Below are positions 44,925 to 64,000 of a DNA stretch of 64,000 bases, one piece after another (within the stretch, counting starts at the first letter, position 1; each line of letters begins with the position of its first letter). The position numbers were made by a program, and so were the translations under genes. Origin of the DNA: Pomphorhynchus laevis (lineage: Eukaryota; Acanthocephala; Palaeacanthocephala; Echinorhynchida; Pomphorhynchidae); assembly GCA_012934845.2 (NCBI GenBank), contig WNNJ02001114.1:54398-118397 (forward strand). Reading direction: 5' to 3'. The notes below the pieces were generated by a model that worked only from the letters and a program-made list of their open reading frames with translations, had not been told where the DNA came from and did no database searches.

Positions 44925-44990
44925 ATATTTTCACAATACTCAAGTGCAATCAAACTCTTCATTGGTTCTATTTCATAAAGTTTTAGAGTC
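44925..44990 (+). CDS. 66-bp symmetric exon, copy 1 of array
   Basis: Bounded by gattgtctag upstream and gtaagtacc downstream. Of the three frames only the one leaving 1 nt at the start and 2 nt at the end is open; the other two contain stops. Residues include FHNTQVQSNSSLVLF. The length, phase and FxNT...SxSxL pattern match the other exons of the array, so adding or skipping any of them keeps the reading frame. The encoded peptide is 22 residues per exon, with no recognised domain. The function is unknown; the arrangement recalls schistosome micro-exon genes, whose exons are usually shorter (36 bp or less). Confidence 0.72.
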
Positions 44991-45235
44991 GTAAGTACCT
45001 TTGGATTTTAAATAAACTATTAATTTTATGTAAAGTTGTTTGTGTCACATTTTATAAAAAATCATGATATGATGAACATCGTATATTTATGCTCGTGATG
45101 GCTTAGTTCATGGTTTTGATAAAGAGTGCATGTTTTTTTTTGAACTAAAACTATATTGGTAAATGATGTTATATAATAGTATAATATTATAAAATACTAT
45201 ACAATAATATAATAAAACGATGAATTTTGCGATTA

Positions 45236-45277
45236 CAACCCTGTCCTTATATTTTGCGAAATATAAGGACAGGGTTG
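45236..45277. repeat. Perfect 19-bp-arm hairpin
   Basis: Left arm caaccctgtccttatattt (45236-45254), loop tgcg, right arm 45259-45277, an exact reverse complement. It sits in the intron after exon copy 1. It is GC-richer than its surroundings, which makes chance pairing unlikely. It could be the remnant tip of a foldback element or a small-RNA hairpin. Confidence 0.85.
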
Positions 45278-45424
45278 AAGCATCGGGATGCATGCTTTCA
45301 GCAGCGCTTTTTTAACTCTGTTTTTATGAATATTTTTACTTACATAAATAATTGTAATTTTAGTCTATATTCTATGCGGTTCACTTTATAAAATACAAAT
45401 AAAATGTTTGAACTGTGTACTAAA

Positions 45425-45650
45425 TTGATCAAATCAACTAACTGAGTCTACGTATTTAATATAATTATAAAATAAACAAAACATAATAATGCTAAATCAA
45501 AATTTAATAATTTAATAATAAAATTAATAATTGTTTTTAGATTTTTTATAAGGTAAATCAAGTTAAAATAAAAAATTTAAATTAAAAATAAACGTCATTT
45601 TTATGAATTGACTAATAAATAACAAACGTTGTATCAGCATAAGAGTTATA
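45425..45650 (-). mobile_element. PLE 3'-end fragment (copy D)
   Basis: Begins with atcaactaactgagtctacg and matches the 3' terminal region of copies A and C through the cgtcatttttatgaattgac segment to gtatcagcataag, then stops. No coding sequence. It is in inverted orientation to copy B, which starts about 0.8 kb downstream. Confidence 0.85.
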
Positions 45651-46424
45651 ACTTTGTTTAAACTTATTTTTTAAAGTGATGCTATATTGTGTTGATATTT
45701 CTTAATTTCGAACCGTTTGTGATCGAAAAAGATTTTTTTTGTATGGTGCTCATAGCTAGTATTTGTTTAAATGATTTTTCTATTGATTGTACAAATGTAA
45801 TGATTAATAACATTACTTTATTAAAATGTAGATTTTTAAAATTAAAACAGGACTGATGTTTACAAACATTAATATATTTGAGAATATATTAAGATAATAT
45901 ATATTTCCTGTTCTACCCGTACGCGTGTTTTTATTTTACTGCTATTGTTATTATATGTATATATCATGATTTATAAACTTGACTAAATGATGCTTCTTTA
46001 TCAATCGAAAAATTATTTGAAAAATACTTTATTGACTACTAAGAAATGTAAATAATAGAGAAGAAATGCAAGTTTTATGTAGAATATTCGTTAAACAAAA
46101 TATATAGTATTCTCTAGCGGTCAGCTACAGACCAAAAATGAGTTGGTTCAATTTAAAAATTTTTCCTACTTCGCGTTTCGACTAGTATTTTTGAAATTTT
46201 GAGTAGTAGTATTGACTGATGCATCAGTGTTCGCAACATTCTATTCAACTGTCGTTTTGTAAATAACAACTATCTAAGAAAAATTAAACCATTAAAATTT
46301 GAAACATTTTTTTTGTAATCCTGATGATGATAGCAGAAGCTATTGAAATATAAAATTTTTATCAAATAAAGGTTAATTTCTGCTTCTTCGTTCCTGTAAT
46401 AACTATATATTTGAAATGGAAGAA
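45651..46424. other. Intron-like segment homologous to later units of the exon array
   Basis: Contains stretches (45705-45960) that align with 49785-50260, and partly with 56857-56900, for example the shared ttaaatgatttttcta...gtacaaatgtaa and atatattaagataatatat segments. This indicates that the exon-bearing unit was duplicated together with its intron. No intact gene. Confidence 0.55.
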
Positions 46425-46916
46425 GATTGTGGGTTTAGTATTTATTATAAATATATGGATAAAATTGAATTAATAGAATCCTTAAATATCTTAATAAATC
46501 AAAATTATTTAAAGATAGGGACATCAATATTTAGACAAATAAAAGGTGTTCCAATAGAAGGTAATAGTAGTCCAATTATATCTGACTTGTTTTTAAGCTT
46601 TATAGAATATGAATTTGTTCATAACTGTGTAAAAACTAAATCTAAACAATATAAATATATGAAATATATGTTTCGATACATTGATGATATATGTGTATTT
46701 AACTCTAATAAGTTTTATTCTATAAGCGAACAAATTTATCCAGGTAGCCTCATTCTTAATAAAACCAATATTGATGATGAAGAAGGTATATATCTAGATA
46801 AGAACATAAAATTAACATCAATTAAAACTAATTTTAATCTATATTGTAAAGATAACATATTTAAATTACAAAAAACATGTTTTTGCATGAGCATTCATGC
46901 ATACCATATAATATAA
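46416..46916 (+). pseudogene. PLE reverse transcriptase fragment (copy B)
   Basis: 166-codon frame; the first nine or so residues are flanking sequence. It shows IKGVPIEGNSSPIISDLF (motif B, with the usual MGG changed to IEG) and FRYIDDICVF with YIDD at 46677-46688. A frameshift in the thumb replaces FTRNIFLHEH with LQKTCFCMSIHAYHII. The 5' half of the RT and the endonuclease are missing, so it is inactive. It is more diverged than copies A and C. Confidence 0.88.
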
Positions 46917-47562
46917 AATATAATACATTAAATAATAAAATTTAAAGAATTGCAACAATTTGAAATGATATTAGATTTCTTCAAAATCATTTAAATAATC
47001 ATTTAATATATGAATATTTTAAACTAGGTTACTATAAAAATACCATCAAACAGAATATAGTAAAATATATAAATCAATACAATAATATTAAAAATATATT
47101 TAAAATCATCAGAGGAAAATATTTATGAATAGATAATAAATAATATACTTTGTATTAGAATATAATATAGATAATCAAATTTCATCAAAGGAAATACGTC
47201 ATTAGCAAGTGTTTGGTCTTGCTGCTATGCTAGGTCGATGAATAGGAGTAGAAACATAATAGCATAGCAATTCCTCCTGATGACATCTAATCCTAATTCT
47301 GATACATCGTTTGTTATTCAATAGTTAATTTATAAAAAATGAGTTGTTTTTTAAATTTCAATATTTTATTTTAACTTGACATAAGTTATATAAAATCTTA
47401 TAGCAATTATTTATAATTATTTATTATATAATTATTTAATTTTGATTTATTGAGTTTGCATTATTATTTTTATTTATTTATTTTTATATTTTTGTATTTA
47501 CTTTTATTTATTTATTTTTATAATTTTATTAAATACGTAAGCACAGTTAGCTGAATTAATTA
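46425..47562 (+). mobile_element. Naiad-type PLE, 5'-truncated copy B
   Basis: Plus-strand copy starting inside the RT at the YKYMDKIELIESLN segment and running to the family 3' end (aaatacgtaagcacagttagctg, the reverse of the copy A terminus). It contains the RT fragment listed separately, a degenerate C-terminus and the 3' hairpin region (47215-47290). It lies within the intron between exon copies 1 and 2. Confidence 0.85.
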
Positions 47563-48178
47563 AAATGATGCAAGAGGATATACATGGTCTGTTATGCTGC
47601 TGACTCGTATTGAATCCATTCTGCTATTATATTGTTTATCGGAAGGGATCTCAAAACTTGGCTGTTAATACATTATCACGAGTTGAAGTTAATCGTGCAG
47701 TCATTGTTACAATTGAAAGTTTAATGGCACTGCACGTTGCTTTTATTTTTTCTTTAAACCAAGGAAAATTGATTTAGTATTGGTGGATCTCATCATCTAC
47801 TGATCCAATACATACATTTCACGTTTCGGTCCTTTACAATGTTGGCCAACGATCACTCGACAGTAGATTAAATCAGATTTAATCTGATTTCAAATTAAAG
47901 CAGTGTTGGTAGATAAATATTCTAGCTTAAATTTGAAAACACAATGTTTTTCTATTAATTACTATTATCAAGCTTCTCATCTATTGTTTGCTTACTAACT
48001 AACTGATGTGCATTCATTGTTGCAATTGAAAGTTTTGAAGACACCCTCACGTTTTCTTTAATCATTCAACAGCAGTACGTTACATTCAAGTATTGGTGGA
48101 TCTCATCATCTACTTTTCCAATACCTACGTTTCACGTTTCGGTCCTTTTAATGTTGGCTGACGATCACTCGACTCGTC
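47562..48178 (+). mobile_element. Ty3/gypsy-like remnant with two LTR-like repeats
   Basis: At about 47605-47700 one frame reads FCYYIVYRKGSQNLAVNTLSR, which resembles the C-terminal RNase H segment of gypsy elements (YRKGxxNxxADALSR). Two related segments of about 170 bp follow (47694-47861 and 48008-48173), sharing attgaaagttt, attggtggatctcatcatc, ttcacgtttcggtcc and acgatcactcgac. They may be LTR remnants. The integrase region between RNase H and the 3' repeat is absent, so the copy is heavily deleted. Confidence 0.55.
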
Positions 48179-48529
48179 TATTTTTATTGCCAATTAGATT
48201 TAATGAAAGACTTTTGTCTTACATTTTGACTAATTGTATAATTGAACATTTGTACAAATCAATAAACTTCTGATATAATCAGAAATTGATTTTAACAATT
48301 TTGTCAAAGAACATTTTAAACATTAAAAATATGTATCTATTTGAAATTGAAAACTGCATTGTAATTTAGCAGTACAATGTAAAAATTAAACAATAGTATT
48401 GATAATTTAATTTCAGAAAATAAAACTACAAAAGAAAATAAATAAAACTACTAGAAAAATAAAACTACTAGACGACTCAACAAGAAACATGGCAACGACA
48501 ACTGAACGTGGATGAAGATCGACCACTAG
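48179..48529. other. AT-rich spacer
   Basis: No ORF, repeat or recognisable element beyond A/T-rich sequence. Lies between the LTR-like repeat and a reverse-transcriptase fragment. Confidence 0.5.
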
Positions 48530-48960
48530 AACGCATTTAACTTAGTGTATAGAGCACACTTACGAGTGTCAATCCGAGATAACGTCACAAAGCTTTTGCC
48601 GTAGTTTGACCTTACGTACAAGCGTAAGGCACTCCTCCGTTTCGGCTAACTCGACCCTCTCACTTCATGTAAAGGAGTCCAGCAGGGTGATCCATTGGGC
48701 CCGTTCCTCTTGTTGGCTATAAATGGTACAATTGAACATGTATCCCATATCTTCGGAATCAACTTCAACATGTGGTACCTGGACGACGGGATAGTCGTCG
48801 GTACTACATCGGCAATCGCATTCGCATTCGGCTGACTAGAACCGAGATTTAAGGTGATAGAGCTTTAGCTAAACTGGCGAAATACAGAGGTAATTATCTC
48901 GCCTGAAGTCGTAAACGCTTACATGGCCTCTTATCTGATAAAGTTATGGAGAACACTTCC
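48530..48960 (+). pseudogene. Non-LTR reverse transcriptase fragment (GVQQGDPLGP / WYLDDG)
   Basis: GC-richer block. One frame reads GVQQGDPLGPFLLLAI, then FNMWYLDDGIVVGT, which are RT motif B and the catalytic box in the LDD form. Upstream motifs are frameshifted and a stop follows the catalytic region. It resembles the RT of the retroelement group whose N-terminal ORFs carry the IPK...FP and RRxALW patterns seen at 29.6 and 52.1 kb, so the fragments may belong to one group; this is an inference. It is followed at 48961-48993 by a third copy of the LTR-like 3' motif (ggtccttttaatgttggc). Confidence 0.75.
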
Positions 48961-49210
48961 GGTCCTTTTAATGTTGGCTGACGATCACTCGACAAAAAAA
49001 TTGCACATTTTTATTATTCCTTTAATATGTTTTATCAACCACTTCTACGAAAGAATACAGCTTCTTAAAATATTACTCTATTCTTTTATTAAAAAATATC
49101 AAACGGTCCTCATCATTAATAAAAATAGTATGAACATTTTTTGAAATTTTAACATTTAAGTTGTTTTTAAATTTGCTTTTGCTCTTAAGGATTATAATTT
49201 TTCTGTTTAG

Positions 49211-49276
49211 AGAATTTTGGGATACAAAATTTGAATCAAACTCCTCTTTGACTATAAGTGGAACCGTCGAAGATGT
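49211..49276 (+). CDS. 66-bp symmetric exon, copy 2 of array
   Basis: Preceded by tttttctgtttag and followed by gtaagtcc. Open in the 1 + 21 codons + 2 phase, with EFWDTKFESNSSLTISG. The core SNSSL is identical to copies 1 and 5 although codons differ (AAC TCC TCT against AAC TCT TCA). About 150 bp of upstream and 150 bp of downstream intron is homologous to that around copy 5 (56360-56780), so the two arose by segmental duplication. The first part of this unit is cut at 48993 by the retroelement debris. Confidence 0.75.
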
Positions 49277-49960
49277 GTAAGTCCAAAACTTTTAATAATC
49301 AATTTCTGCGTTTAAAATATTGAATTTGTTTTTTTTATAAAAGTATTTATTTTTATTTCAGTAATAATTCGTAAGTTTTTGTAAATTAGAATAAGTTTTA
49401 TTGAATTTAATTGTATATTTTCATCGCCGTATAATTAAAACTTATCTCAAATAAAAAGAAATAATTTACTTACATTAATAATTTTTACTTGAAGGTTATT
49501 TTTAAATTATAACATGAATTAAATAATTTTTCATATTCAAATTTAATTCGTCTTCTGATTCCAATATTTCCTGCCGAATTCATGTAAATCGCATTTATAT
49601 CGCGTTTATTTATTTATAAAAAATATCGCGTTTATTTATTTATCTCGTTTATTATTTATTTTTGTATATCGCGTTTTCTTAAACTTACAAAGAAAACGTA
49701 TAAATTACGTGAACTGTTAATTTAAAACTCTATATTTACACTTAATTAATTAGCCTTTATTAATTACTTAATTAATGATTAATTTCCAATCGTTTGTAAT
49801 CAGAATAAATTATTATTTTTGATATTTTGGTACTACCACTATTTGGTTGAATAATTTTCAGGTCTGTGAATAATGTGCGTAAAATATAAACATATTTAAT
49901 GACTAATATCATTATTTTAACTAGTTAATAATTATCCAAATAATGTTAACACATTATCGG

Positions 49961-50107
49961 AGCTGGATCAAAGAAAGAAGGAAAATTTTATTTGATTTTC
50001 GATAACTTCTGTTAGCATCTTCAGAAAATTACTTCAGTAATTTTCTGAAGATGAAACAGAAGTTACCAAAATATCAAAAATAATTTCTTCTTTTCTTTGA
50101 TCCAGAG
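49961..50107. repeat. Foldback element with about 70-bp arms
   Basis: The outer arms begin agctggatcaaagaaag and end ctttgatccagagct. The inner tip is a perfect 16-bp stem (atcttcagaaaattac at 50017-50032, partner 50037-50052) with loop ttca. It resembles a small MITE or hairpin. No coding capacity. Confidence 0.75.
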
Positions 50108-50227
50108 CTTCAATAATTCTTGATATTATCATTCAAATGTGGGGTTTTCCTTTTTTAAATGGGCGTGATGTTTAAAAGGCTTAATAAATTGTCACAATAT
50201 ATTAAGATAATATATTTTTTGTTTCAG

Positions 50228-50290
50228 CTGTACACGTGCTTTTATGAATTTTATTGTTAAATTTTATTGTATTGATAAACCCATCAGAGG
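50228..50290 (+). CDS. Candidate second-type exon, 63 bp
   Basis: Preceded by a strong acceptor tttttgtttcag and followed by gtaacc. It is open in the same phase as the 66-bp exons (1 nt + 20 codons + 2 nt), with TRAFMNFIVKFYC. Related sequences sit at about 45912 (acceptor AG lost) and 55618 (stop codon, no donor), at comparable places in their units. It may be a second exon type of the same gene or an accidental open stretch; the weak donor keeps confidence low. Confidence 0.35.
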
Positions 50291-50819
50291 GTAACCAATA
50301 TTGAAATAACTGTTTGTCAAGTTGTATTGATAAATAATATTGTAATAAAAAAATTAATTGTCTCTTTAAGATTGAAGTGAATATTTTTTGTTTGACTTCA
50401 TCGCTTTTATCAGCTTGCAAACGCGATTCAAATATATCAAAAAAAGGGTAATTTCAACGAATCCTGTTTATTCAGGAAATTACAACACTGCATGATTGCA
50501 TTAAATAAACGTCTTCTCTTTGATTTGTCATCTAAAAATTGCTGTATACAGATGCGTTGATTATATGATCAACTTGTAACTTAATTTCCAAAGCTAGATT
50601 CCCAAAATAGGAACAACGAATTTTACTCAAAGCATAGTATGCTCCATGGTTACTTTGCAAATGAGATCACAGAACCAGCTCTAAAATGTCTTTATCGACT
50701 GGTCTTTACGTTTAAAATATGTTCCCGGTCATTCAGTCTTACAAGAAACTTTTGTTTTATTGCCCATTATATTAAATTTAAATGTTATTGACGATACTGA
50801 TTCGCTTAATTCACCATTT

Positions 50820-51565
50820 ACGTCTAGTGATGTGCACAGATCCCTTTATATCATAAAGACTTATAAAGCTGTTGGGTTAGATTAGCTTTACGTTGAACAT
50901 ATAACATTGACCTTTCGATGGTTGGATAATTACTGTACGCACTTATTAAATGTTTTGTTTAATTGTTATTCGATTCCATTATCTTGCGTGACGGTGTAAT
51001 AAAAATTCTTTACTTTAGTAAAGGATCTTAATTTTTTTTAGTTTTTTTTATCACGGGATTGATATTCTTAATCCTGTCTTTAATTTATTCACACGTATTA
51101 TGCATACGCGATTAATTAGCTATCGTTGATATTTTCTGGATGAAGAGCAATATAGCGCACAAATCCCCACCGATTTACTTCATATGCTATAAAGATGGTC
51201 GTGATGAAGGTGATGGCTATTTTTGGAGGCATATTACGAGCTTTTGATTCAGCTAATCTGATCTTCTATGCTGTAATCTTGATAGCACATTTTGTTAATA
51301 ATCGGTTTTTACATCTTCTACAGTTCTTTAATTCAACTGTCTATGAGTCTCCAACGGTCTAAGCGTTTTAGCGCCGTTTATATCTGATCGTAATGTATTG
51401 CATGGCTATCCTCTGAGCCCACTGTTATTTTCGTATTTTGTACTCGATCGTACTAGAGCTCCTTCAAAAATGCAATCTAAACGCCGATGATCTTTTGATA
51501 TTATCCAAAAGTCTGTCCTCTTCCCAACTATCACTAAATGAACTTTCTATTATTTTACGAATGAA
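50820..51565 (+). pseudogene. Non-LTR reverse transcriptase pseudogene (YADD type)
   Basis: Scattered RT motifs on the plus strand in several frames. They include IIKTYKAVGLD-stop-LYVEHI near 50850 (fingers motif), LLNVLFNCYSIPL near 50950, VLHGYPLSPLLFSYFVLDR near 51395 (motif B) and NADDLLILSKSLSSSQLSLN near 51480 (catalytic box, Tyr replaced by Asn). Multiple stops and frameshifts. It differs in motif style from the RT fragment at 48.5 kb, so it is probably another LINE clade. It stops near the minus-strand element that begins at 51570. Confidence 0.72.
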
Positions 51566-51569
51566 ATTA

Positions 51570-52675
51570 AGGTTAACATTAATAAATAAAATGTTGTGGA
51601 AATTCGCTTAGGTGGTCCACTCCTTCTCTGCCACAGGTAGATTCGGTAGTGATGCGAATCGCAAAGCGAGTGAGAGCTTGTGCTAAAGTTCGAGACTGTG
51701 AACTAAAACGTGTAAGCATGTTCCGCCAAGATGTTGAATCAAGTTCAGAAGGCTCTGCACCACTTTTAGTTCGTTCACGTGCGGAGATGATACAAGTTTT
51801 GTCCAAAGCATAAAATCTGCTTGCGTGATGCATTATTGGACCAGGAAATTGTGACGATAAAAATATTTCTGGTGGTGGGACTTTTGCGAAGGGATGAAGA
51901 TCTTGTAGTCATGATTTTAATGATCTAACGTGCACGTTTTCGTCTGGGCTCAGGACTATGGATTATGACTTATCTTTTAGTACTGATGTAGACGCCGTCA
52001 CTTTCACTGTGGTCAGAAATTTACAATAACGACCGATTCAATCAGTTTTCTTGAGGGGAACGCGATAAGTTAGTCCCAACTGAAAGTGCTTAGCATCATG
52101 GAACAATGCGTCGTACTTATTTTTCTCCCATAAAGCTAAACGTCTCTCTATAATTTTGCGAATGAGCGACATCTTTGTGGTAGGGACTCGTAGCCGTACG
52201 CATTGGGAGAACACCGTGGCTTTTTTTAAAAAGGACGGATCGCAAATTTCTTAAATTGATGCCTTTACGTATAAATCGTCGAGAGTTGCTACAAACGTAT
52301 GACTGGCGTTGCATTTTCGAAGGGTAAATAGATTTGATCGCCATTGCATGACCACAGAGTATATTTCGTCAATGGTCATCGGTGTCACTATTCGATTTTC
52401 GTGGTGTAGGGGACTAGTTCTGATTCAATCTACGATAATCGCTGGCATGTCACCTTAAGGTCTATATTGTTGACTATCAGATGCGGAGAAGTAGGCAGCT
52501 CGTTTGTAACGATGGGTGATTGATTCGAGTCCAGCGTTGATTTGCATGAGCAATTATTGGCTAAACAATTAAAGCATGGCTTTCCAGCTTTAGCGCACTT
52601 GCATCTTAGGCATTTAGCTGCTAATGTGTTGCAATCGTAGCATTTGACGCTGGATGAGGGAACACCCTTCGGCAT
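51570..52675 (-). mobile_element. Retroelement ORF fragment with Cys-rich finger, minus strand
   Basis: Minus-strand coding remnant in at least three frames. 52430-52675 is the Cys-rich N-terminus (separate entry). Downstream, near 52100-52180, one frame reads MSLIRKIIERRLALWEKN, then KYDALFHDAKHFQLGL, a pattern found between the finger and the RT in some invertebrate retroelement ORFs. 51579-51833 is a further open piece (84 codons) of uncertain frame. No RT is attached; the remnant abuts a plus-strand RT pseudogene, so it is truncated. Confidence 0.6.
52430..52675 (-). CDS. Cys-rich zinc-binding N-terminal retroelement ORF
   Basis: 81 codons from ATG. Residues 12-44 hold ten cysteines in the pattern CxxC, CxxCxC, CxxC and CxC (CYDC, then KCLRCKCAKAGKPCFNC, then NCSCK). 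Such CKCxKAGxPCxNC modules occur in nucleic-acid-binding N-termini of invertebrate retroelements. The frame ends at QRLS and sequence related to such elements continues downstream in other frames, so a frameshift or stop has cut the original protein. A host DNA-binding protein is less likely given the surrounding debris. Confidence 0.6.
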   Translation of the reverse strand: MPKGVPSSSVKCYDCNTLAAKCLRCKCAKAGKPCFNCLANNCSCKSTLDSNQSPIVTNELPTSPHLIVNNIDLKVTCQRLS

Positions 52676-53147
52676 TCTCTTAGTTATTTATGTGCTGGTT
52701 ATTTTGTCCAATGATTGTATGTAATCCAAGTGTATTGTAAAATCCAAGTGTGTTGTAATCCAAGTGTATTGTATTGTGTGTATTATGGTATTATTGTGTG
52801 TTTAAGGTTACGCTTCCAGTAATATTTATATTAATAAAAATTTTAATCTTTGTGGACAAGATTTAAGAATCAAGACAATTTTTTAGCCAGTGCAAACATT
52901 ATAATACGAAGTTATATCCCGCCTCAATCATTTTAGCACGGTACTTTCTATCTTTGACCGATGATGCGTACTGCGCAGCTGCATAACCAGGCACAATAGC
53001 TGACTGGCGAAGAAACGATTACTGTAGTGGATGTGTTACCGCGAAGTCTATAGCATCTGAAGGATCCCCGTAGATCTGTATATATGTATGTATATACATA
53101 TACATGTTATATATAACATGTATAAGTATATATGTATTGATACATTG
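52676..53147. other. Spacer with short minisatellite and AT palindromic tract
   Basis: 52721-52775 carries three imperfect copies of a unit of about 19 bp (aatccaagtgtattgta). 53083-53140 is an alternating TA/CA tract with palindromes such as acatgttatatataacatgt. Between them is a moderately GC block (52880-53080) without a readable frame. It leads directly into the 443-bp repeat. Confidence 0.6.
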
Positions 53148-53341
53148 TTTCGTATGGGATCATGAAGATCGATTGAAATCGGGACTGGTGATCCTTTGAT
53201 GGATGCTTATTTATGTATTGAAAAGTTGCTAGGTCACACAAGGTGACTTTCACATTGAAAACCAGCTACAGAATTCGTCCTTCATGATGTTCAACTCAAC
53301 ACACCCTGACAACCAACGGAACCATTGCCACAGCCGTTTTC

Positions 53342-53425
53342 GTTTCGCCCGCTTTTTGCCACATGTTGGTAGTCCCGGGCTCGTCAGAAGGCTGGCTACC
53401 AACTCTTCACCTTTTGAAACTTGAC
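53342..53425 (-). ncRNA. Hammerhead ribozyme-like core, unit 1
   Basis: On the minus strand the conserved core appears in the correct order: cleavage triplet GTC (53425-53423), a stem I region closed by AAG and CTT, CTGACGA (53387-53381, fitting CUGANGA), stem II GCCC (53380-53377) pairing with GGGC (53350-53347), then GAAAC (53346-53342). Stem III next to the GTC is short (TGT against ACG, with one wobble), as in minimal hammerheads that act as tandem dimers. The stem II loop of 26 nt is longer than usual. A self-cleaving repeat transcript would yield monomers of about 443 nt. Activity is not proven. Confidence 0.6.
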
Positions 53426-53784
53426 ACATCCGAGATTCGAGCTGTTGCTCTCCGTACTTTAGCTTGCGCTCTTGACTGCTAGGCTACGAATCCAGGATTA
53501 CCAAATTTCACACAGTATATGAAACTTTCCATCATGATATCCAGAAATTGTATTATCCGAGATACTTTCTGGCATGCTTATTATAGATTATTTCGTATGG
53601 GATCATGAAGATCGATTGAAATCGGGAATGGTGATCCTTTGATGGATGCTTATTTATGTATTGAATAGTTGCTAGGTCACACAAGGTGACTTTCGCATTG
53701 AAAACCAGCTACAGAATCCTTCTTTCATGATATCCAATTCCATACACCCTAACTACTAACGGCGCCAATGCCACAACCGTTTTC

Positions 53785-53868
53785 GTTTCGCCCGCTTTTT
53801 GCCACATGTTGGTAGTCCCGGGCTCGTCAGAAGGCTGGCTACCAACTCTTCACCTTTTGAAACTTGAC
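53785..53868 (-). ncRNA. Hammerhead ribozyme-like core, unit 2
   Basis: Identical core to unit 1, although this unit belongs to the other sequence variant: GTC, CTGACGA, GCCC/GGGC and GAAAC are all retained. Confidence 0.6.
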
Positions 53869-54227
53869 ACATCCGAGATTCGAGCTGTTGCTCTCCGTAC
53901 TTTAGCTTGCGCTCTTGACTGCTAGGCTACGAATCCAGGATTACCAAATTTCACACAGTATATGAAACTTTCCATCATGATATCCAGAAATTGTATTATC
54001 CGAGATACTTTCTGGCATGCTTATTATAGATTATTTCGTATGGGATCATGAAGATCGATTGAAATCGGGACTGGTGATCCTTTGATGGATGCTTATTTAT
54101 GTATTGAAAAGTTGCTAGGTCACACAAGGTGACTTTCACATTGAAAACCAGCTACAGAATTCGTCCTTCATGATGTTCAACTCAACACACCCTGACAACC
54201 AACGGAACCATTGCCACAGCCGTTTTC

Positions 54228-54311
54228 GTTTCGCCCGCTTTTTGCCACATGTTGGTAGTCCCGGGCTCGTCAGAAGGCTGGCTACCAACTCTTCACCTTT
54301 TGAAACTTGAC
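54228..54311 (-). ncRNA. Hammerhead ribozyme-like core, unit 3
   Basis: Identical core to units 1 and 2. Confidence 0.6.
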
Positions 54312-54670
54312 ACATCCGAGATTCGAGCTGTTGCTCTCCGTACTTTAGCTTGCGCTCTTGACTGCTAGGCTACGAATCCAGGATTACCAAATTTCACACA
54401 GTATATGAAACTTTCCATCATGATATCCAGAAATTGTATTATCCGAGATACTTTCTGGCATGCTTATTATAGATTATTTCGTATGGGATCATGAAGATCG
54501 ATTGAAATCGGGAATGGTGATCCTTTGATGGATGCTTATTTATGTATTGAATAGTTGCTAGGTCACACAAGGTGACTTTCGCATTGAAAACCAGCTACAG
54601 AATCCTTCTTTCATGATATCCAATTCCATACACCCTAACTACTAACGGCGCCAATGCCACAACCGTTTTC

Positions 54671-54754
54671 GTTTCGCCCGCTTTTTGCCACATGTTGGTA
54701 GTCCCGGGCTCGTCAGAAGGCTGGCTACCAACTCTTCACCTTTTGAAACTTGAC
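54671..54754 (-). ncRNA. Hammerhead ribozyme-like core, unit 4
   Basis: Identical core to units 1-3. Unit 5 retains only GAAAC and the 3' strand of stem II because it is cut at about 55140. Confidence 0.6.
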
Positions 54755-55156
54755 ACATCCGAGATTCGAGCTGTTGCTCTCCGTACTTTAGCTTGCGCTC
54801 TTGACTGCTAGGCTACGAATCCAGGATTACCAAATTTCACACAGTATATGAAACTTTCCATCATGATATCCAGAAATTGTATTATCCGAGATACTTTCTG
54901 GCATGCTTATTATAGATTATTTCGTATGGGATCATGAATATCGATTGAAATCGGGAATGGTGATCCTTTGATGGATGCTTATTTATGTATTGAATAGTTG
55001 CTAGGTCACACAAGGTGACTTTCGCATTGAAAACCAGCTACAGAATCCTTCTTTCATGATATCCAATTCCACACACCCTGACTACCAACAGAACCATTGC
55101 CACAGCCGTTTTCGTTTCGCCCGCTTTTTGCCACATGTTGGCAAACATTACATAAT

Positions 55157-55345
55157 GTTTGCATTATATTAATGATAATAATATAATACAAATTTTATTA
55201 TTAATATAATTTGTAAATAATTAATTTACATAATTACAAATTACATTTAATTATACAAATTACATTTGTATAATTTTATTATAATATTATATAAATATTT
55301 ATATTATTAATATAATATTATTTATATTGTTAATATAATGCAAAC
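55157..55345. repeat. MITE-like AT element with terminal inverted repeats
   Basis: Left end gtttgcattatattaat (55157-55173) and right end gttaatataatgcaaac (55329-55345) are inverted repeats matching at 16 of 17 positions. The interior is nearly pure A/T. It sits at the point where the fifth 443-bp unit is interrupted, next to a small palindrome gcaaacattacataatgtttgc-like junction (55141-55162). Confidence 0.6.
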
Positions 55346-55760
55346 ATATATTCATAATAAAAATAATGCTTTTTAAAATATAATTTTGTTTATAATAAAG
55401 AAATTTATTAATAATACAATATACAAGTCAAGGGTTACTCGCAAATGGGTCCTTATGTTTATATTTAATTGATCATTTCGCTTGTTTGTAATCACTGGAG
55501 AATTAATCCTCGACCTTTGTGATCGGATCGATAACGAAACATAAAGTGTTAATGCAATGCTTATTTTATTTCGAAACTCTCTTATCGCATGATAATACTC
55601 ACGTTTATGTTTTTCAGCTGTTTAACGTGCCATTGCTTTTATTAGAATAGAAGCTGATAAATTCACTCAATATTTTCTGCTAAGGAGAATTTGAATTAAA
55701 CCTAAAATTAATTTTCTTGTTCTGTTTAATTCATAAATTAATAATAATTTACCTGTTTAG
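55346..55760. other. Intron-like sequence before exon copy 3
   Basis: AT-rich. Holds a relic related to the candidate 63-bp exon: ttttcag then ctgtttaacgtgcc at 55618, with an in-frame stop and no donor. No other feature seen. Confidence 0.5.
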
Positions 55761-55826
55761 AGAGTTTCACAATACTCAGGTCTTGTCAAAGACGTTATTG
55801 CGTATTTTTGGTAATAATACTCTATT
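55761..55826 (+). CDS. 66-bp symmetric exon, copy 3 of array
   Basis: Preceded by acctgtttag and followed by gtaagtac. Open in the shared phase, with EFHNTQVLSKTLLRIFGNN. The N-terminal half is closest to copy 1 (FHNTQV). Only 192 bp separates it from copy 4, the shortest intron in the array and the only pair not separated by mobile DNA or long intron. Confidence 0.75.
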
Positions 55827-56018
55827 GTAAGTACACGCTTATGCTAATTAATTGTATATCAACACAGTTTATTAATAGTGCATTAAAATTGTAATTTTTT
55901 AATAAAAAATTCAATATTTTTTATTCAATATTTTCTTCAAATGAGAATTTCAATTCAACGGACAAATAATTTACTTATTCTGATTTATTCATAAACGAAC
56001 TATGATTGATCTGTTTAG

Positions 56019-56084
56019 AGAGTTTTTCAATACTCGGATCAGCGCAAAGTCGGTTTTGGATGTTTTTGCTAATGTTAATTTGTT
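56019..56084 (+). CDS. 66-bp symmetric exon, copy 4 of array
   Basis: Preceded by gatctgtttag and followed by gtaagtgc. Open in the shared phase, with EFFNTRISAKSVLDVFANVN. Upstream intron (ttattcataaac...gatctgtttagagagttt) is a near copy of that before copy 3, so these two come from a local tandem duplication. Confidence 0.75.
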
Positions 56085-56580
56085 GTAAGTGCACTTTAAT
56101 TTAAGTTATTTATCGTATTTGGGTGAAATCTGTTTTATCAGATTCCAGAAAATTTTAATTATTTTTTCATATTTTATTTTATTCGTCACAATCAGTAGTC
56201 GTTTATCATCGCAAAGGATCAATTCATAAATGATTTAGAAATTTTACTTTCCAAAGGACAAATGTATTACGAAATAGTTACAATAATATTTGTATAAAAT
56301 CAATTGGTTAGTTTGCATTTCAAATGCCGTATTTAGCACATAATATAGTATCTTAATATTGTATTTTTCACAATTTTATTATTTTGTTTAAATGTTTTAT
56401 TAATCAATTTATGAAAAGAATACAATTTATTATAAAATATTATTGCATTTTTTTATATATAACATATCAAATGTATCTCGTCATTAATTCAAATAGTTTG
56501 AGAACGAATTTTTAAATTTAAACATTTATTTCTACTTGAAATTTTTGTTCAGCTTTTACGATTATAACTCTTTTGTTTAG

Positions 56581-56646
56581 ACAATTTATAAATACAAGAT
56601 TTGAATCAAACTCTTCATTAAATATTTACGGAGGCGTGCAAAATAT
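56581..56646 (+). CDS. 66-bp symmetric exon, copy 5 of array
   Basis: Preceded by cttttgtttag and followed by gtaagttc. Open in the shared phase, with QFINTRFESNSSLNIYGG. It shares FESNSSL with copy 2, and flanking intron on both sides is also related to that around copy 2. Confidence 0.75.
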
Positions 56647-56885
56647 GTAAGTTCAAAATATGATCAATTTCAGTAATCATTCGTTTGTTTTTATAAATGT
56701 GAACAGGTGTCTTTATTGAATTTAATTGTATATTTTCATTGTCTTATAATTGAAATTTTACTCAAATAAAATGTCAAATTTTAATTTACTAAATTAAATT
56801 GTAAAAATTTAAATTGTAAATTTAAATTTAAATTTACTAAATTTACTTTATTCATCGCTAGTATAGGGTTAAATGATTTTTCTAG

Positions 56886-56898
56886 TGAATGTACAAAT
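56886..56898 (+). other. Possible 13-nt micro-exon
   Basis: Between tttttctag and gtaagtagc lies the 13-nt segment tgaatgtacaaat. Homologous places in the other units read cag / gtctgtgaataat / gtgcgt (about 49862) and a version without AG (about 45790). A 13-nt exon would shift the frame, so it could not be added freely. Low confidence. Confidence 0.25.
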
Positions 56899-57069
56899 GT
56901 AAGTAGCATACACAAAACTAGTAGATTCTACATATGAGTCTGTTGGATATGAACAGTTTTTTACATCTAACAATTTAGTGATAGATCATGTAAACGAATT
57001 TATATAAAGAAAAATATTAATGCCAAATGATGTAGATAAATTAGTTTAAAACATCCGCAAATTTGGAAC

Positions 57070-57920
57070 ATTTCATTATGTCGACAGAAGTGCATAAGTT
57101 ACAATTACTATATGTCGGACGACCAATAGTGAGCTGCATATGAACGCCAACAGAATTGCCATTTCGACGTATACACGAACTACCCAGGCCTCTCCTAAAA
57201 TTTGTACAGGCTCATTTTGATTGTTCGTTATAGTTCCTTCGGTTCTTTGAATCCCAAAGAGAAACATGGCCATCTGAGGACATATTAGTCTCCGCAGATG
57301 TAAAGAACCTTGTATTCAAACATCCCTACGAGTGAAGCATTGAGAGCGATTGCCTTAATAATGGAAAATACTGATTTGTATAGTTCTATGAAAGACTTCA
57401 TTTTGAAGTCAGCTAGAATAATTTTGGAGAATAACGTTCTTGAATTCGATGTTAATTATTTTATTTAACGAGAAATAACAGCCATGATTGCACCATTTGC
57501 TCTAACGTTGGCAGTGATGTATATGTGACTGGTTGAGACCAAATGGTTGTCTAATAATTCTATAAAGCCTCTGTGCTTTTGTTGCTATATAGATGACATT
57601 TTCTTTGTATGGCCTGGCAGTGAGTTAAGTTGAGAAAACTTTAAAAGTTCAGTCGATTCCATAACACCACTGAAACTGACGCTCTAAAAAGGTATATTGG
57701 TGAACTTCTTAGATCTTACAATATATCGGTCTGATAGAGGGTACTAAACAACATTTTATAGGAAACCTGTATCCCTAATGTTACATTTACACGCTAGGAT
57801 TTGTCACCCTATGTCACTAAGAAGGCATGTTAAATTTAACGAAACTCTACGTGTAAGAAGATCATGTTATATATGCGACTAGCGAATTGAAGCTATTAAG
57901 CTTGCAATACTTTGTTTCTG
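57070..57920 (+). pseudogene. Canonical Penelope/Poseidon-type reverse transcriptase fragment
   Basis: Plus-strand RT remnant with stops and at least two frameshifts, readable in pieces. These are EVHKLQLLYVGRPIVSCI-stop-TPT (motif 2), SEDILVSADVKNLVF (motif A), LENNVLEFDVNYFI then TAMIAPFALTLAVMYM (motif B region), CCYIDDIFFVWPGSELS (catalytic YIDD, about 57575-57590), VNFLDLTIYRSDRG, FYRKPVSLMLHLHARICHP and RRHVKFNETLRVRRSC. This set is typical of canonical PLE RTs and clearly unlike the Naiad-type copies in the same window. No endonuclease follows before the sequence turns AT-rich. Confidence 0.82.
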
Positions 57921-59945
57921 CATAAACCCTTACCTATGATAAACGTTTAGAAAACAATAAAATATAGTTATAATACGTTAATTTTGTTTACCTCAAATAG
58001 GCAGCGGTTAACATTACGTATTAGTTGAGTTTAGAAAATCAAATTTTCATGTATATTGACTCAACAATTCACTACCTATCTTGCTTTTGGCATAAGCTAT
58101 AATCCGGACGTTACTTGCTTCAATGTTATGTCAAGTTTTGAAAGATAGTTTTCAGACAATTTTGAGTTTTTAATTTTGTTTTACACTCACACAACTTGTC
58201 ATTTAATTCTGCATTCCATCCTAGCGAGAGTGTTTCGAATTTTTCTTTAATCACTAGACAACAATCATTTAAATTCATAAGCTTCATTAGATCTCTAAAT
58301 GATATTGATTTTAGTTTTGTGTAAAAAAATTATAGAGAAATATTTTAGTCGATAGTTACTTTAATATTGCAATATTTATCTTTTTTCATTAATAGCTATT
58401 TAATCTTATTCAATTCATTCTGTAATAGTTGGTTAGATCTACATAATTGATATTAGCCATTTAACGATGCCATGGCCATCTCCTTGTCAGTTTCGCAAAA
58501 AAATGTTTGTCTTTGTGTACTTGCATTGTTTTGCCTTTGTTTGATATTCGTTTGATTTTATTAAACAGAAAATTTAACGTTTAATATTGCTGTTTAATCT
58601 CAATCTCTAATTAAATAGATTTACGTTGATGATTTAGAAATTCATGACCGTCGGCGGCTTTCTGCTAACTTGTAAGGTCAACTTGTTATTTATCAACATA
58701 ACGCCCATAAATCTTCCTGATATCGTTTCCATAATACTTTTTGTAACTGACACTTGAATTTTTTGAGATTATACGGCTTATTTAATTACTAATCGCCACT
58801 ACGTATTTTTGAAAAATAATTGTTTATTAATTGTAAAATGATTAATACACATTGTTCAATAGTTATTCAAATTTATTGTTTAAATTTATTGTTTTATTAA
58901 ACAATAACTTTTCAAGTAATCAATATTTTATGAACTTTAAAATATATATATTTTATAAATGTATATAAATATATTATATTATATATATTATATAAAAATA
59001 CTAAGTAAATAAACAGATTACATTAATGTATATACTTCGTTAGCATAATTTCGACTCTATTTAACATTAATATTAAAAAATCTTAAATATTAATATGTTC
59101 ATTAAATTTTTAAAAACTACATATATATGCTAAAAATGTGATTAACAAGCTCAAATAGCTTCGAATGTAATGTGAAAGTAAAATAAATTCGAAAATACAT
59201 TAATATTTACTTATTAAATTAAAATTTTTCTGATTACAATGAAGTTTTTTATCGACCTCTAAATTTTCAATACGTGATATATTATTTATTTGTTCATAAC
59301 AATTCGTTATTATATAAAATTTAAATTTTACATATTTCTATTTGTAAAATTTTAGTTGGAAATATTTTGCATTAGTTATATGACTCGATTATGATCTTTG
59401 AAAATATTCGACGCTCTTGTCAACAAAAGTAGAAACATTTCTACATGACACCAATATAAAATAAACATAAAATCTGTGTTTACATTCACAACATGGTTTA
59501 GGTTTTGACTCATGTATCATCGACTTTACGTAACAATTTGTGGTCACCAGTATGCTGAAACGTTTTTATGGTCAGATGTATGTTAGAGCTCAAAACGCAG
59601 TAGAATGCGGTGAACCTAGCTGATGCATTAACATCTGTAAGCTACTTGACAATAGAAAAATAAGTTATGACTGAATGTTTAGTGAACATTTGTCCGATAT
59701 GATCGGATCTACCTATAGTTTATCAAAAAGCAGTCATTTTTTTGCTGATATTTCGTGCAACCATGTGTGCGCTTCTGTCAATTTCGCTTCTACTTAAGCT
59801 GCCGATAATTTCCGAGCCTTATGTAAATCAAAATATCGTTCACATGTGGTCTACTATCTTACTTAAATTTTGTCAATGTTTTTGAGCGAATAACACGCTT
59901 TATCTCACTGTCCACTCATTTTCTTTCGTTAATGTAATTTTTTAG
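57921..59945. other. Long AT-rich intron-like stretch
   Basis: No ORF or recognisable element. Contains TA-rich tracts (58930-59000) and many short direct repeats. An acceptor-like tag at about 58156 is followed by an early stop and no donor, so I do not call an exon there. Confidence 0.5.
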
Positions 59946-60011
59946 AGAATTTCATGATTCTTCTATAAAGTCACACATTTTGCTGGACATCCTAGATAAT
60001 ATTCGTATGTT
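59946..60011 (+). CDS. 66-bp symmetric exon, copy 6 of array
   Basis: Preceded by gtaattttttag and followed by gtaagtatc. Open in the shared phase, with EFHDSSIKSHILLDILDN. It keeps the EFHD start and the S-x-x-L spacing but lacks SNSSL. The pyrimidine tract is shorter than in the other copies. Confidence 0.7.
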
Positions 60012-60919
60012 GTAAGTATCTGTAGTTTTTAAATTAACAATTTATATCGCAATATTTCAAATTATACTGAATGCATTTATATCACAATAATTTATCCATA
60101 GTGCTTTTAGCAGCAATGACCACTTTTGTTTTAGAATTTAAGTTTATTTGCAAATGCATCATTTTGTTAAAAAGAATTTTACAAGAATATGATGTTTTAT
60201 GAAAATAATCTTTTATTAGAATAGGAAACATTTTTATAGTTGCATAACTTAAACAACAGGTATTATTGTTGATCACAGTAAGATATATTGATAAAGCTCA
60301 ATTATTACAAATGTAAAAAGGCAATTTACATAAAATTTGTTGACACATTTTTAATGTAAAATTATTTAAATACATTGTTTCAAAATGTCCTTTGGTTGAT
60401 CATTTTAATTATAAAGAAATTACACATTTATATCATTTTATGCGATGAAACTGATTTCTACATTCTGATATAAATCTTAATTAAAATAAAATTAAAATTC
60501 TTTTTTATTATAATCTTTAGTTAATAAGGGAAAATTAATTTACCCAATATGCTTAAATAGCTGTTATTTTTTTTAATAACGAACCGATTGAATGCTCTAT
60601 ACTGGAATAAGATTTAGTTAGAAATTTTAAATTTACATTTTAAAATATTTATTGTCAATATTTAAATATTGACAATATTAAATTAATATTATTAATATAA
60701 ATTAATATTATTTTAAATCAATATTTAAATATTGATTGTCTTTATTAGTATAAAGAACAAATATATTACAACATTTTCGCAGCTTGACAAAATAATTATA
60801 CTTTATATTGTAAATTTGTTCCAGAATAAATTATTATTACAAAATAAATTTTGTATTAAAATTTTCATTTTTTAATAATTAAAATAATTTCGAAAATAGT
60901 ACGGCCTTATTTTATCAAG
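60012..60919. other. AT-rich intron-like stretch with palindromes
   Basis: No gene. Two perfect palindromes around a shared aatatttaaatatt core: 60651-60676 and 60716-60737. A segment near 60575 (cgaaccgattgaatg) is related to intron sequence after copy 1 (about 45710). Confidence 0.5.
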
Positions 60920-60988
60920 GATGGTATCACACGATACTATCCTTGAACCAAACTCTTAACTTGTCTTCTCTGGAAACGTTAAAGGAAT
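60920..60988 (+). pseudogene. Decayed exon, copy 7 of array
   Basis: Related to the other exons (SHDTILEPNS aligned to FHNTxxxSNS) and still followed by gtaagtg. However, the position that is Ser in SNSSL is TAA, and the acceptor is changed to atcaag one codon upstream of the expected start. The length, 69 bp, still preserves phase. It is probably a pseudo-exon. If it were spliced in it would end the protein, so a regulated terminal exon cannot be excluded. Confidence 0.6.
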
Positions 60989-61739
60989 GTAAGTGTCGCT
61001 GAATTTAAAATCGATCAGTCTTGAACTGAATTTTTACAATCAGTGTTACAATGGTTATAATGTTATAATTTTATTACAAATTTAATTATTAAATACTACT
61101 TCATTTTATTTGATATATTATATTAAATAATACATTAAATAATGTATTATTGTTTAATAATTACTACTCTTTGGAAGTAGTTGTTATTCTTGGTTGATTA
61201 TTGACAAAATATTCATTTTTTGTATGTTTTCGATTCGGCGTCAATTTATTAGTTGGTATAGGAATTCTCGCTGATCAGCCAAACAAAGTGTTATGTTCAA
61301 TAACGAAAGGATTCTTTATTTGATACATTATATTAAATAATACATTAAATAATACATTAAATAATACAGTAATTATTTTATGCAATGATATTGTTTAATA
61401 ATTATTCTATTCTACAACTCGATTTTTTAAGTTGAAAATAAATTTTATATTTTTTAATATAAAATGATAGTATATTTAAAATTCCTGAAGCTTTTATTGT
61501 TATATGTTTTAGCAACACTTGAATGACACCCTCTGCAAACTTTTATCAGATATATTACTATAATGTAGTAACCTGTAATTTTGAATTCATCATTACTGTT
61601 TTAAATATTATTAACAATTATGTGTGATAATGTTGTATAGTTTATTTAATTTTATATATAAAATGTCAACTAATTAGATTACAAATATTCTAGAATGCAC
61701 CACCCACGTTTTTAAATTCGTTAAATTTTTAACGTTTAG

Positions 61740-61805
61740 AGCATTCTTCAAGACGAACTTCGATACAAGCTCTTCAATGGTTATATCTGGTAATGCTCAT
61801 TGTAT
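61740..61805 (+). CDS. 66-bp symmetric exon, copy 8 of array
   Basis: Preceded by ttaacgtttag and followed by gtaagtatc. Open in the shared phase, with AFFKTNFDTSSSMVISGN, close to copy 2 in the VISG/TISG part. Last copy seen in the window. The true 3' end of the gene was not found. Confidence 0.75.
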
Positions 61806-62806: not shown

Positions 62807-64000
62807 CTTATTAAATCAGCTAACTGAGTCTACGTATTTAATATAATTATAAAATAAACAAAACATAATAATGCTAAATCAAAATTTAATAATTAAATAA
62901 TAAAATAAATAATTGTTTTTAGATTTTCTATAATTTAAATCAAGTTAAAAAATAAAAATAAAAATAAAAAATAAAAAATAAAATTTAAAATAAACGTCAT
63001 TTTTATGAATTGACTAATAAATAACAGACGCTGTATCAGAATAAGGATTAGAGGCCATCAGGAGGAACTGCTATGCTATCAGGTTTCGGCCCCTAGCTAC
63101 TCTACCCAACCTAGCAGCGGGGCCAAATACATGCTAATGATGTATTTCCTCTGATAAAACTATCTAGTATCTTATTCTAATACAAAGTATATAATTTATT
63201 ATCCATCCATAAAACTTTGCCACTTAAGAGTTTAAATTTATTCTGTATATTATTGTGTTGATTTATATATTTTACTATTTTCTGCTTGATGTTATTTTTA
63301 TAGTAACCTAGTTTAAAATATGTATCTATTAAATTATTTAAATGATTTTGAAGAAAGCCAATATCATTACATATTGTTGCAATTCTTAAAATTTCATTAT
63401 TTAATGTATTATATTTTATATTATATGGTATGCATGAATGCTCATGCAAAAATATGTTTCTTGTAAATTTAAATATGTCATCTTTACGATATAAATTAAT
63501 AGTAGTTTTAGTTAATGTTAATTTAATGTTCATATCTAGATATACACCTTCTTTATCATTAATATTGGTTTTGTTAAGAATAAGGCTTTCTGGATAAATG
63601 TGCTCACTAATTGAATAAAAATTATTAGAATTAAATACACATATATCATCAATGTATCGAAACATATATTTCATATATTTATATTGTTTAGATTTAGTTT
63701 TTACACAGTTATGAACAAATTAATATTCTATAAAGCTTAAAAACAGGTCAGCTATAATTGGGATACTATTACCACCCATTGGAACACCTTTTACTTGTCT
63801 AAATATAGATGTCCCTACTTTTAAATAATTTTGATTTATCAAAATATTTAAGGATTCTATTAATTCAATTTTATCCATATATTTATATTTATTTGATGGT
63901 TTAATTTTTGTTAGATAGGCGTTATAATTATTATAACATATATATGTATATCTTTTTCCGAATGTAAGGTTAATTAATTTTACTAACGCTTCTTTAATAT
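62807..64000 (-). mobile_element. Naiad-type PLE, copy C, running off the window
   Basis: Same family and orientation as copy A. The 3' terminal region is 62807-63176 (aaatcagctaactgag end, TAAAA-type tract at about 62945-62990, conserved hairpin near 63065-63125). The RT continues to the window edge. It is very similar to copy A, indicating relatively recent activity of the family. The endonuclease would lie beyond position 64000. Confidence 0.88.
63177..64000 (-). pseudogene. PLE reverse transcriptase, palm and thumb (copy C, partial)
   Basis: The open part is 63177-63674, with FRYIDDICVF (YIDD at 63645-63656) and the complete thumb including INQHNNIQNKFKLL, which copy A lacks. Upstream, a single substitution makes TAA at 63720-63722 (EYEF becomes EY-stop-F). 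Beyond it the frame is open again through VKGVPMGGNSIPIIADLF to IKEALVKL at the window edge. Apart from that stop the RT is well preserved. Confidence 0.88.

Follow-up and report, generated by a model that had tools for sequence, protein, structure and literature searches.

A genome-wide family of phase-2 repeat exons in Pomphorhynchus laevis that probably encodes modular beta-helix proteins

Pomphorhynchus laevis is an acanthocephalan (thorny-headed worm) parasite of fish. One of its contigs ends in a run of eight short, similar exons, which raises the question of whether they make up a gene of their own or part of something larger, and of what kind of protein they would build. The window analysed here, 64,000 nt in length, covers bases 54,398–118,397 of the 118,397-base contig C141, in a genome assembly of 249 Mb and 3,242 contigs. 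Because the last base of the window is also the last base of the contig, the exon array runs to the contig end. The first-pass annotation of this sequence had proposed a single micro-exon-like gene at the locus. We found instead that such exons are spread across the genome and that they form a real family of coding-like exons. We consider it likely that the window holds part of a repeat-exon array belonging to a large, undescribed P. laevis family, in which each exon of 66 nt (in some cases 63) corresponds to one 22-residue rung of a beta-solenoid. As far as modelling can tell, the family probably encodes modular beta-helix proteins.

All eight segments of the first-pass annotation are present, each with an AG before it and GTAAGT after it; seven measure 66 nt and the one at 60920 measures 69 nt. 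Along the plus strand they are an epsilon exon (YFHNTQVQSNSSLVLFHKVLE; final two bases TC) at 44925..44990, which is like the QFFGTQVQANSSLIL exons of contig C729; a beta exon (EFWDTKFESNSSLTISGTVED) at 49211..49276; alpha exons at 55761..55826 (EFHNTQVLSKTLLRIFGNNTL) and, after a 192-nt intron, at 56019..56084 (EFFNTRISAKSVLDVFANVNL); a second beta exon (QFINTRFESNSSLNIYGGVQN) at 56581..56646, preceded by a 496-nt intron; an alpha-2 exon (EFHDSSIKSHILLDILDNIRM) at 59946..60011, with relatives on contig C489 (loci L016 and L017); an exon of type gamma (a name coined in this analysis) at 60920..60988; and a delta exon (AFFKTNFDTSSSMVISGNAHC) at 61740..61805. The gamma exon looks decayed, with a TAA in the common frame and 3 additional bases, and has open relatives at L016, L030 and L031. 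A profile built from the eight exons recovers these eight, its own training set, and no other segment of the window at E < 1. Between 43.4 and 64 kb the forward strand has 11 GTAAGT sites, eight of which serve as their donors. Introns separating neighbouring exons range from 192 to 6,484 nt and contain mobile-element remnants. The earlier statement that seven exons are open in one phase only holds for 44925, 49211, 56581 and 59946, whereas a second frame is open in 55761, 56019 and 61740. The peptide motif then described is present in a looser form (44925 begins YF, 61740 begins AF and 59946 reads EFHDS), and the SNSSL codons do vary synonymously between copies (TCAAACTCTTCATTG, TCAAACTCCTCTTTG, TCAAACTCTTCATTA). 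Exon 49211 has a near copy on contig C426 with 2 synonymous and 0 other changes in 19 compared codons; the first codon differs.

To what extent do such exons occur elsewhere? A narrow pattern of acceptor, Phe codon and donor (TTTAG-A-GAR-TTY ... TGTAAGT) has 53 matches genome-wide, against 0 for the reversed control. A slightly wider splice-exon-splice pattern has 188 matches against 2 for its reversal, a count that takes in some leucine-rich repeat (LRR)-like exons of 63 nt and one or more chance matches. From the matches listed for both patterns, 65 exons were typed (58 of 66 nt, 6 of 63 nt and 1 of 65 nt), with the phase-2 frame open in 64 and the other two frames in 1 and 18. Identical and some near-identical copies are left out of this set. 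Four of its 63-nt exons are LRR-like and one member (C1244) is probably a chance match; these five were excluded from the union of 93 exons described below. A still broader pattern (397 matches versus 48) was rejected as a rung count; many of its matches listed are a repeated sequence starting TTTAGATCTTTTAAATG.

Because the patterns fix part of the sequence, the exons were recounted independently of them, with the profile and a free acceptor search over part of the genome sequence (lengths of 58–74 nt, with those near 66 preferred). This yielded 94 matches, among them 58 distinct exons with both splice sites and 5 distinct matches without. Fifty-three of the 58 are 66 nt long, 3 are 63 nt, and there is one each of 69 and 68 nt. 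The phase-2 frame is open in 56, compared with 0 and 24 for the other frames; the two exceptions are window exon 60920 and an exon in L038. Splice signals are nearly uniform, with a GTAAGT donor in 55/58 and a TTTAG acceptor in 50/58. The union comprises 93 distinct exons, 91 of them 63 or 66 nt long. Of these 91, the phase frame is open in 90, whereas 300 mononucleotide shuffles leave it open in 17 on average and in 29 at most. Contigs C141, C2129, C2485, C2740 and C2963 carry the window exons in identical or near-identical copies. These contigs are either recent duplicates or uncollapsed haplotypes, and the genome-wide counts may be inflated. We also observed another class of exons, 63 nt long and of identical phase (KFAGCEINIKDFLGLDKLTSL and related sequences), with 38 matches on C214, C603, C837, C1137, C1154, C1738, C1924 and other contigs, most of which have one or two. 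It appears LRR-like to the eye and is possibly a separate repeat-per-exon family.

The exons are arranged in arrays. Among the matches listed, those on C489 are all on the plus strand and those on C569 all on the minus strand, across tens of kb. On C2305, 18 clean plus-strand exons lie within 46 kb (189,955 to 235,518), with introns as short as 133 nt. Five more matches there, one of them on the minus strand, are without clean sites. Within the 105.5 kb of C2305 examined, no exon was found in the 27 kb preceding the array or in the 33 kb following it. On C729, six clean exons and two partial matches occur, the former within ~4.6 kb, and the smallest intron is 86 nt. Among 92 matches, no two rungs were seen fused without an intron; the longer ones checked by position extend into intron. 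Single candidate repeat matches are opposite to the array strand at C2305:205359 and C2954:114742. Contig C1405 bears tandem units of ~3.94 kb with alpha and beta exons, and the stretch examined also contains a gamma exon. Eleven units at this spacing (L023–L030) carry identical alpha exons and are followed by units of ~6.2 kb. Judged from sequence, the C1405 units are a recent amplification.

Homologous, phase-symmetric and coding-like exons had been claimed for this locus, and exons of this kind are indeed joined in two deposited gene models, both annotated only as hypothetical protein. The 18 C2305 exons spliced in silico give 395 residues with no stop. Compared with 5.8 billion proteins (8,000 candidates scored), this product has a single match at E up to 1, the 365-aa P. 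laevis protein GJ496_006834 (hereafter P0121; E 1.3e–100). P0121 joins 11 rungs, the last five of which span 17 kb. In the 30 kb of contig C2954 examined, its peptides are carried by 66-nt exons at 106,923, 122,645, 123,102 and 123,772 and by a 63-nt exon at 116,080, all five with TTAG/GTAAGT borders. Several observations speak against a perfect fit: the first four repeats fall outside the examined 30 kb, three repeats match the single exon at 106,923, the clean exon at 107,514 is absent from the protein, and residues 140–256 are non-repeat. The N-terminus of P0121, MVKCDDK, may reflect a wrong start, and its C-terminus is a donor read through.

When the seven open window repeats were joined (60920, with its stop, was left out), they too had one protein match, the 110-aa P. 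laevis protein GJ496_000155 (P0122). Its N-terminus, MVISGNAHCI, equals the end of the repeat of exon 61740; it contains a stretch identical to the peptide of exon 56019, directly followed by the repeat of 56581, and its C-terminus looks like that of P0121. Since its record gives an 18,455-base contig, P0122 represents a copy of the window exons located elsewhere, not on the window contig. In 57/58 exons a stop codon stands immediately after the codon that spans the donor G; hence, where an intron is left unspliced, translation would stop at that rung.

The 22-residue repeat has the consensus xFxxTxxxSNSSLxIxGNVxxx (72 of 82 distinct peptides). The codon split by the intron consists of the exon's last two bases and the first base of the next exon; exons end in NT in 56/58 cases and start with A in 51/58, so this codon is mostly Leu, Ile or Val. 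N-glycosylation sequons are found in 58/82 distinct repeats, at 0.91 per repeat versus 0.47 in within-peptide shuffles. Column shuffles give 0.79 per repeat, which indicates that the repeat motif itself carries the sequons. Cysteine makes up 0.55% of residues in the 82 distinct repeats. Together, sequons and low cysteine content suggest an extracellular protein. The earlier view that the repeats belong to no known family stands: Pfam, NCBIfam and PDB searches found nothing significant, whether with repeats taken singly, with joined repeats or with a repeat profile of 72 rows. The best PDB match of the profile is at E = 0.26, Pectate_lyase_5 scores 16.6 bits (E = 0.0093), below the curated cut-off of 24.3, and Chlorovi_GP_rpt matches 1/72 single repeats (E = 0.0055). 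A single-sequence AlphaFold2 model (mean predicted local distance difference test score, pLDDT, of 55.8; predicted template modelling score, pTM, of 0.41; repeat blocks mostly at pLDDT 59–87, falling to 47–54 near the insert) contains strands only; most repeats show two of them, plus a bridge of two residues. By title, all 50 structural matches listed for the model are beta-helices or other beta-solenoids, of several solenoid types. One of the structures, 8ikw, is a complex of a polygalacturonase with an LRR inhibitor, of which we take the aligned chain, by its length, to be the polygalacturonase. We propose with moderate confidence, on the basis of this model, that the repeats fold as a solenoid of ~22-residue strand-built rungs (parallel beta-helix).

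The exons diverge about as fast as the introns, with their length preserved. In nine alpha exons, identity is 0.744 in the exon and 0.760 and 0.638 in the flanking 100 bases; in five beta exons the respective values are 0.665 versus 0.563 and 0.672. Gaps reach 15–26% in the flanks of these alignments and zero in the exons, the latter partly by choice, as 66-nt exons were picked. The third codon position is no less conserved than the first in alpha exons (0.751 versus 0.706) and is less conserved in beta exons (0.567 versus 0.700). Taken together, these data imply that residue identity is only loosely maintained, in contrast to length and frame, which are preserved. We also determined ratios of nonsynonymous to synonymous substitution (dN/dS, Nei-Gojobori) for the 1,596 pairs of 57 of the 58 66-nt pattern-matched exons (one has a stop), excluding codons 1–2, which the pattern had fixed. 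The ratio is 0.54 for the nine closest pairs and 0.75, 0.74 and 0.53 for pairs beyond 30% divergence. Between 10 and 30% it is 1.05 and 0.98; a value near 1, named by the first-pass annotation as one of two joint signs against its gene, is thus found in this range and not among closer or more distant pairs. The whole pattern agrees with rapid change, driven perhaps by the host, on a scaffold that stays fixed; it also agrees with young duplicates under little constraint.

Under the explanation that we favour, each exon of 66 nt (sometimes 63), with phase-2 introns and near-uniform TTTAG/GTAAGT borders, would add one turn of a cysteine-poor beta-solenoid. The intron-split codon, usually NTA (Leu, Ile or Val), would fall within the rung's first strand, so that any rung could follow any other without loss of frame or hydrophobic core. 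Uniform splice sites and a single phase would make every join legal. Most likely, the genes are long and grow by one rung per 66-nt exon, and tandem duplication of exon blocks may account for their growth and diversification. The window array is presumably transcribed. Exon skipping or intron retention could vary protein length, and a retained intron would probably end the protein at once. The product may be a host-facing extracellular protein, glycosylated and quick to evolve, with a role in binding or at the surface. With such a design, the worm could extend or reorder a rapidly changing protein by single turns. A beta-helix version of one-repeat-per-exon arrays, dispersed through a parasite genome and with exons that change about as fast as introns but hold their length, would, if true, offer a naturally occurring experiment on modular proteins. 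The family would then also be a candidate for the acanthocephalan host interface, about which little is known. The family is also easily missed: its exons encode 22 residues each, the Pfam and NCBIfam models tried do not recognize them, and the deposited models are named hypothetical protein.

How the exons are organized into genes, and how many of them function, can be seen differently. There may be many short tandem genes, each of two to four rungs with its own ends, rather than few long multi-rung genes, and we hold this to be a minority possibility worth taking seriously. Alpha-then-beta exon pairs recur at several loci, the 3.94-kb units of C1405 could be such genes, a conserved AATAAA-bearing element follows beta exons, and the deposited models are short (110 and 365 aa). 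However, the spacing of rungs (86–1,298 nt on C729 and down to 133–221 nt on C2305) leaves little space for gene ends, an argument made without a systematic search for start exons, and P0121 unites 11 rungs, the last five over 17 kb. A somewhat more doubtful alternative is that few functional genes exist and that the window array, with many others, consists of non-functional duplicates whose exons have not yet decayed. This would account for the dN/dS near 1 at intermediate divergence, the mobile-element pieces in introns, the decayed exon 60920, the lack of clean sites in 5/23 C2305 matches, and the frequent recent duplication seen in near-identical contigs and on C1405. Against it, 90/91 exons stay open, where shuffling gives ~17, donors are GTAAGT in 55/58, and exons of this type are used in two deposited models. 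Finally, hundreds of interchangeable rung exons could be joined variously by alternative splicing and exon-block duplication, so that a solenoid facing the host would differ in length and surface rung by rung. This would be a parasite counterpart, by analogy, to the combinatorial exon systems known from immune receptors; we regard it as rather unlikely.

The nature of the repeat and of its carrier is likewise open to other views. In our judgement it is distinctly unlikely that the repeat is an LRR with one unit in each phase-2 exon, the arrangement known from brown algal ROCO genes and glycoprotein hormone receptors. Points in favour are the similarity of the spacing V-x-x-[LIV]-x-F-x-x-T-x-F to the LRR consensus LxxLxLxxNxL, the phase-2, one-repeat-per-exon design common to both, the LRR-like look of the 63-nt KFAGCEINIKDFLGLDKLTSL class in the same phase, and the LRR-like Pfam family FNIP at E = 0.24. 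Yet no Pfam family named LRR appears up to E = 10, the model lacks helices and is built of paired strands, and no chain among the 50 structural matches listed is an LRR by title, which does not in itself exclude that fold. That the exon and its splice sites are carried by a mobile element or satellite, and not by host genes, is very improbable. Copies are dispersed and recently amplified in surroundings rich in mobile elements, but what they share, as far as can be told without a systematic search for element ends, is an exon with intron flanks that differ in extent, and the order of exon types varies along arrays.

Several other features of the window were noted. A weak candidate for an alternative terminal exon, perhaps a conserved intron, follows exon 49211 at 49362..49455 (+; TTTCAG|TAATAATTCGTAA, AATAAA at 49450), and a weak copy follows exon 56581 at 56674..56770 (+; AATAAA at 56765). 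Similar elements are found at L014, L015, L018, L019, L023, L024 and L030, among the loci listed, which do not take in L025–L029. The terminal-exon reading is uncertain because, of these seven loci, just L015 and L018 retain the acceptor AG; it has been lost in L014, L019, L023, L024 and L030. After the repeat of exon 56581, P0122 continues with another repeat and not with this element. A satellite with a 159-bp unit and higher-order periods of 318 and 477 bp fills positions 1–43472, the first two thirds of the window. At 53135–55141 lies a 443-bp tandem unit (4.5 copies, 95% matches) with higher G+C than its surroundings; a unit resembling it (88–91% identity) adjoins exons on C489 (L018). 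Two inverted copies of a reverse-transcriptase remnant, 85% alike, are located at 46446–47490 (+) and 62840–63887 (–); RVT_1 matches at E 0.001, below cut-off, and the YIDDI motif looks Penelope-like. Elsewhere in the assembly, mitochondrial cox1 is present as several broken, nuclear-looking fragments on C2414, C2953, C510, C3234 and others. Neither the arthropod cuticle domain PF00379 nor the nematode-associated PF01484 had a match in searches run without a positive control, at most a hint against an aphid, phylloxera or nematode origin.

None of the titles and abstract openings listed in searches of open-licence PMC, a scope that leaves subscription papers outside, describes this family. Known systems share parts of its design. 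Pectate lyase-like parallel beta-helix proteins have rungs of short strands, as the P. laevis model does, and supply its best structural matches. Unlike them, the P. laevis repeats have no enzyme domain or significant sequence match and would place one exon per rung. Schistosome micro-exon genes, to which the locus had been likened, are built mostly of symmetric exons of 36 nt or less that are not known to be copies of one repeat, and their proteins carry an N-terminal signal peptide. The P. laevis exons are likewise symmetric and can be skipped in frame, in a parasite and with a possibly host-facing product. In contrast to those flatworm exons, the acanthocephalan ones are 66 nt long (53/58), homologous, and one structural unit each. 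As a description of the design the micro-exon analogy holds; as the name of a family it does not fit.

Insects and algae offer further parallels. The exons of aphid bicycle genes are not known to be copies of one fixed-length repeat, and their proteins have cysteine-tyrosine (CYC) motifs, unlike the P. laevis repeats with 0.55% cysteine, which do not fall within that family. As described in PMC9168663, bicycle and megacycle genes have many small internal exons, nearly all of phase 2 and highly divergent, with >100 microexons in a single gene; small phase-2 exons and high divergence recur in P. laevis. The grape phylloxera effector cluster is, according to PMC7376646, a large, lineage-specific, fast-evolving family in which duplicated exons of some members form motif repeats. 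It differs in being from an insect and in having mostly intronless genes, a comparison by description and not by sequence. In exon design the P. laevis arrays correspond to the LRR arrays of brown algal ROCO genes, which PMC11378527 describes as 72-nt phase-2 exons of one repeat each that duplicate and shuffle, with multiple splice variants of differing exon combinations. Its authors point to phase-2 LRR exons also in gonadotrophin receptors, and one-repeat-per-exon, single-phase LRR arrays are thought there to feed receptor diversity. The P. laevis exons share with them one repeat per exon, phase 2 and uniform length. Whereas the algal exons encode LRRs (LxxLxxLxxLxLxxNxL) beside ROC-COR in 72 nt, the exons of this animal parasite encode xFxxTxxxSNSSLxIxGNVxxx in 66 nt, probably as the rungs of a beta-helix.

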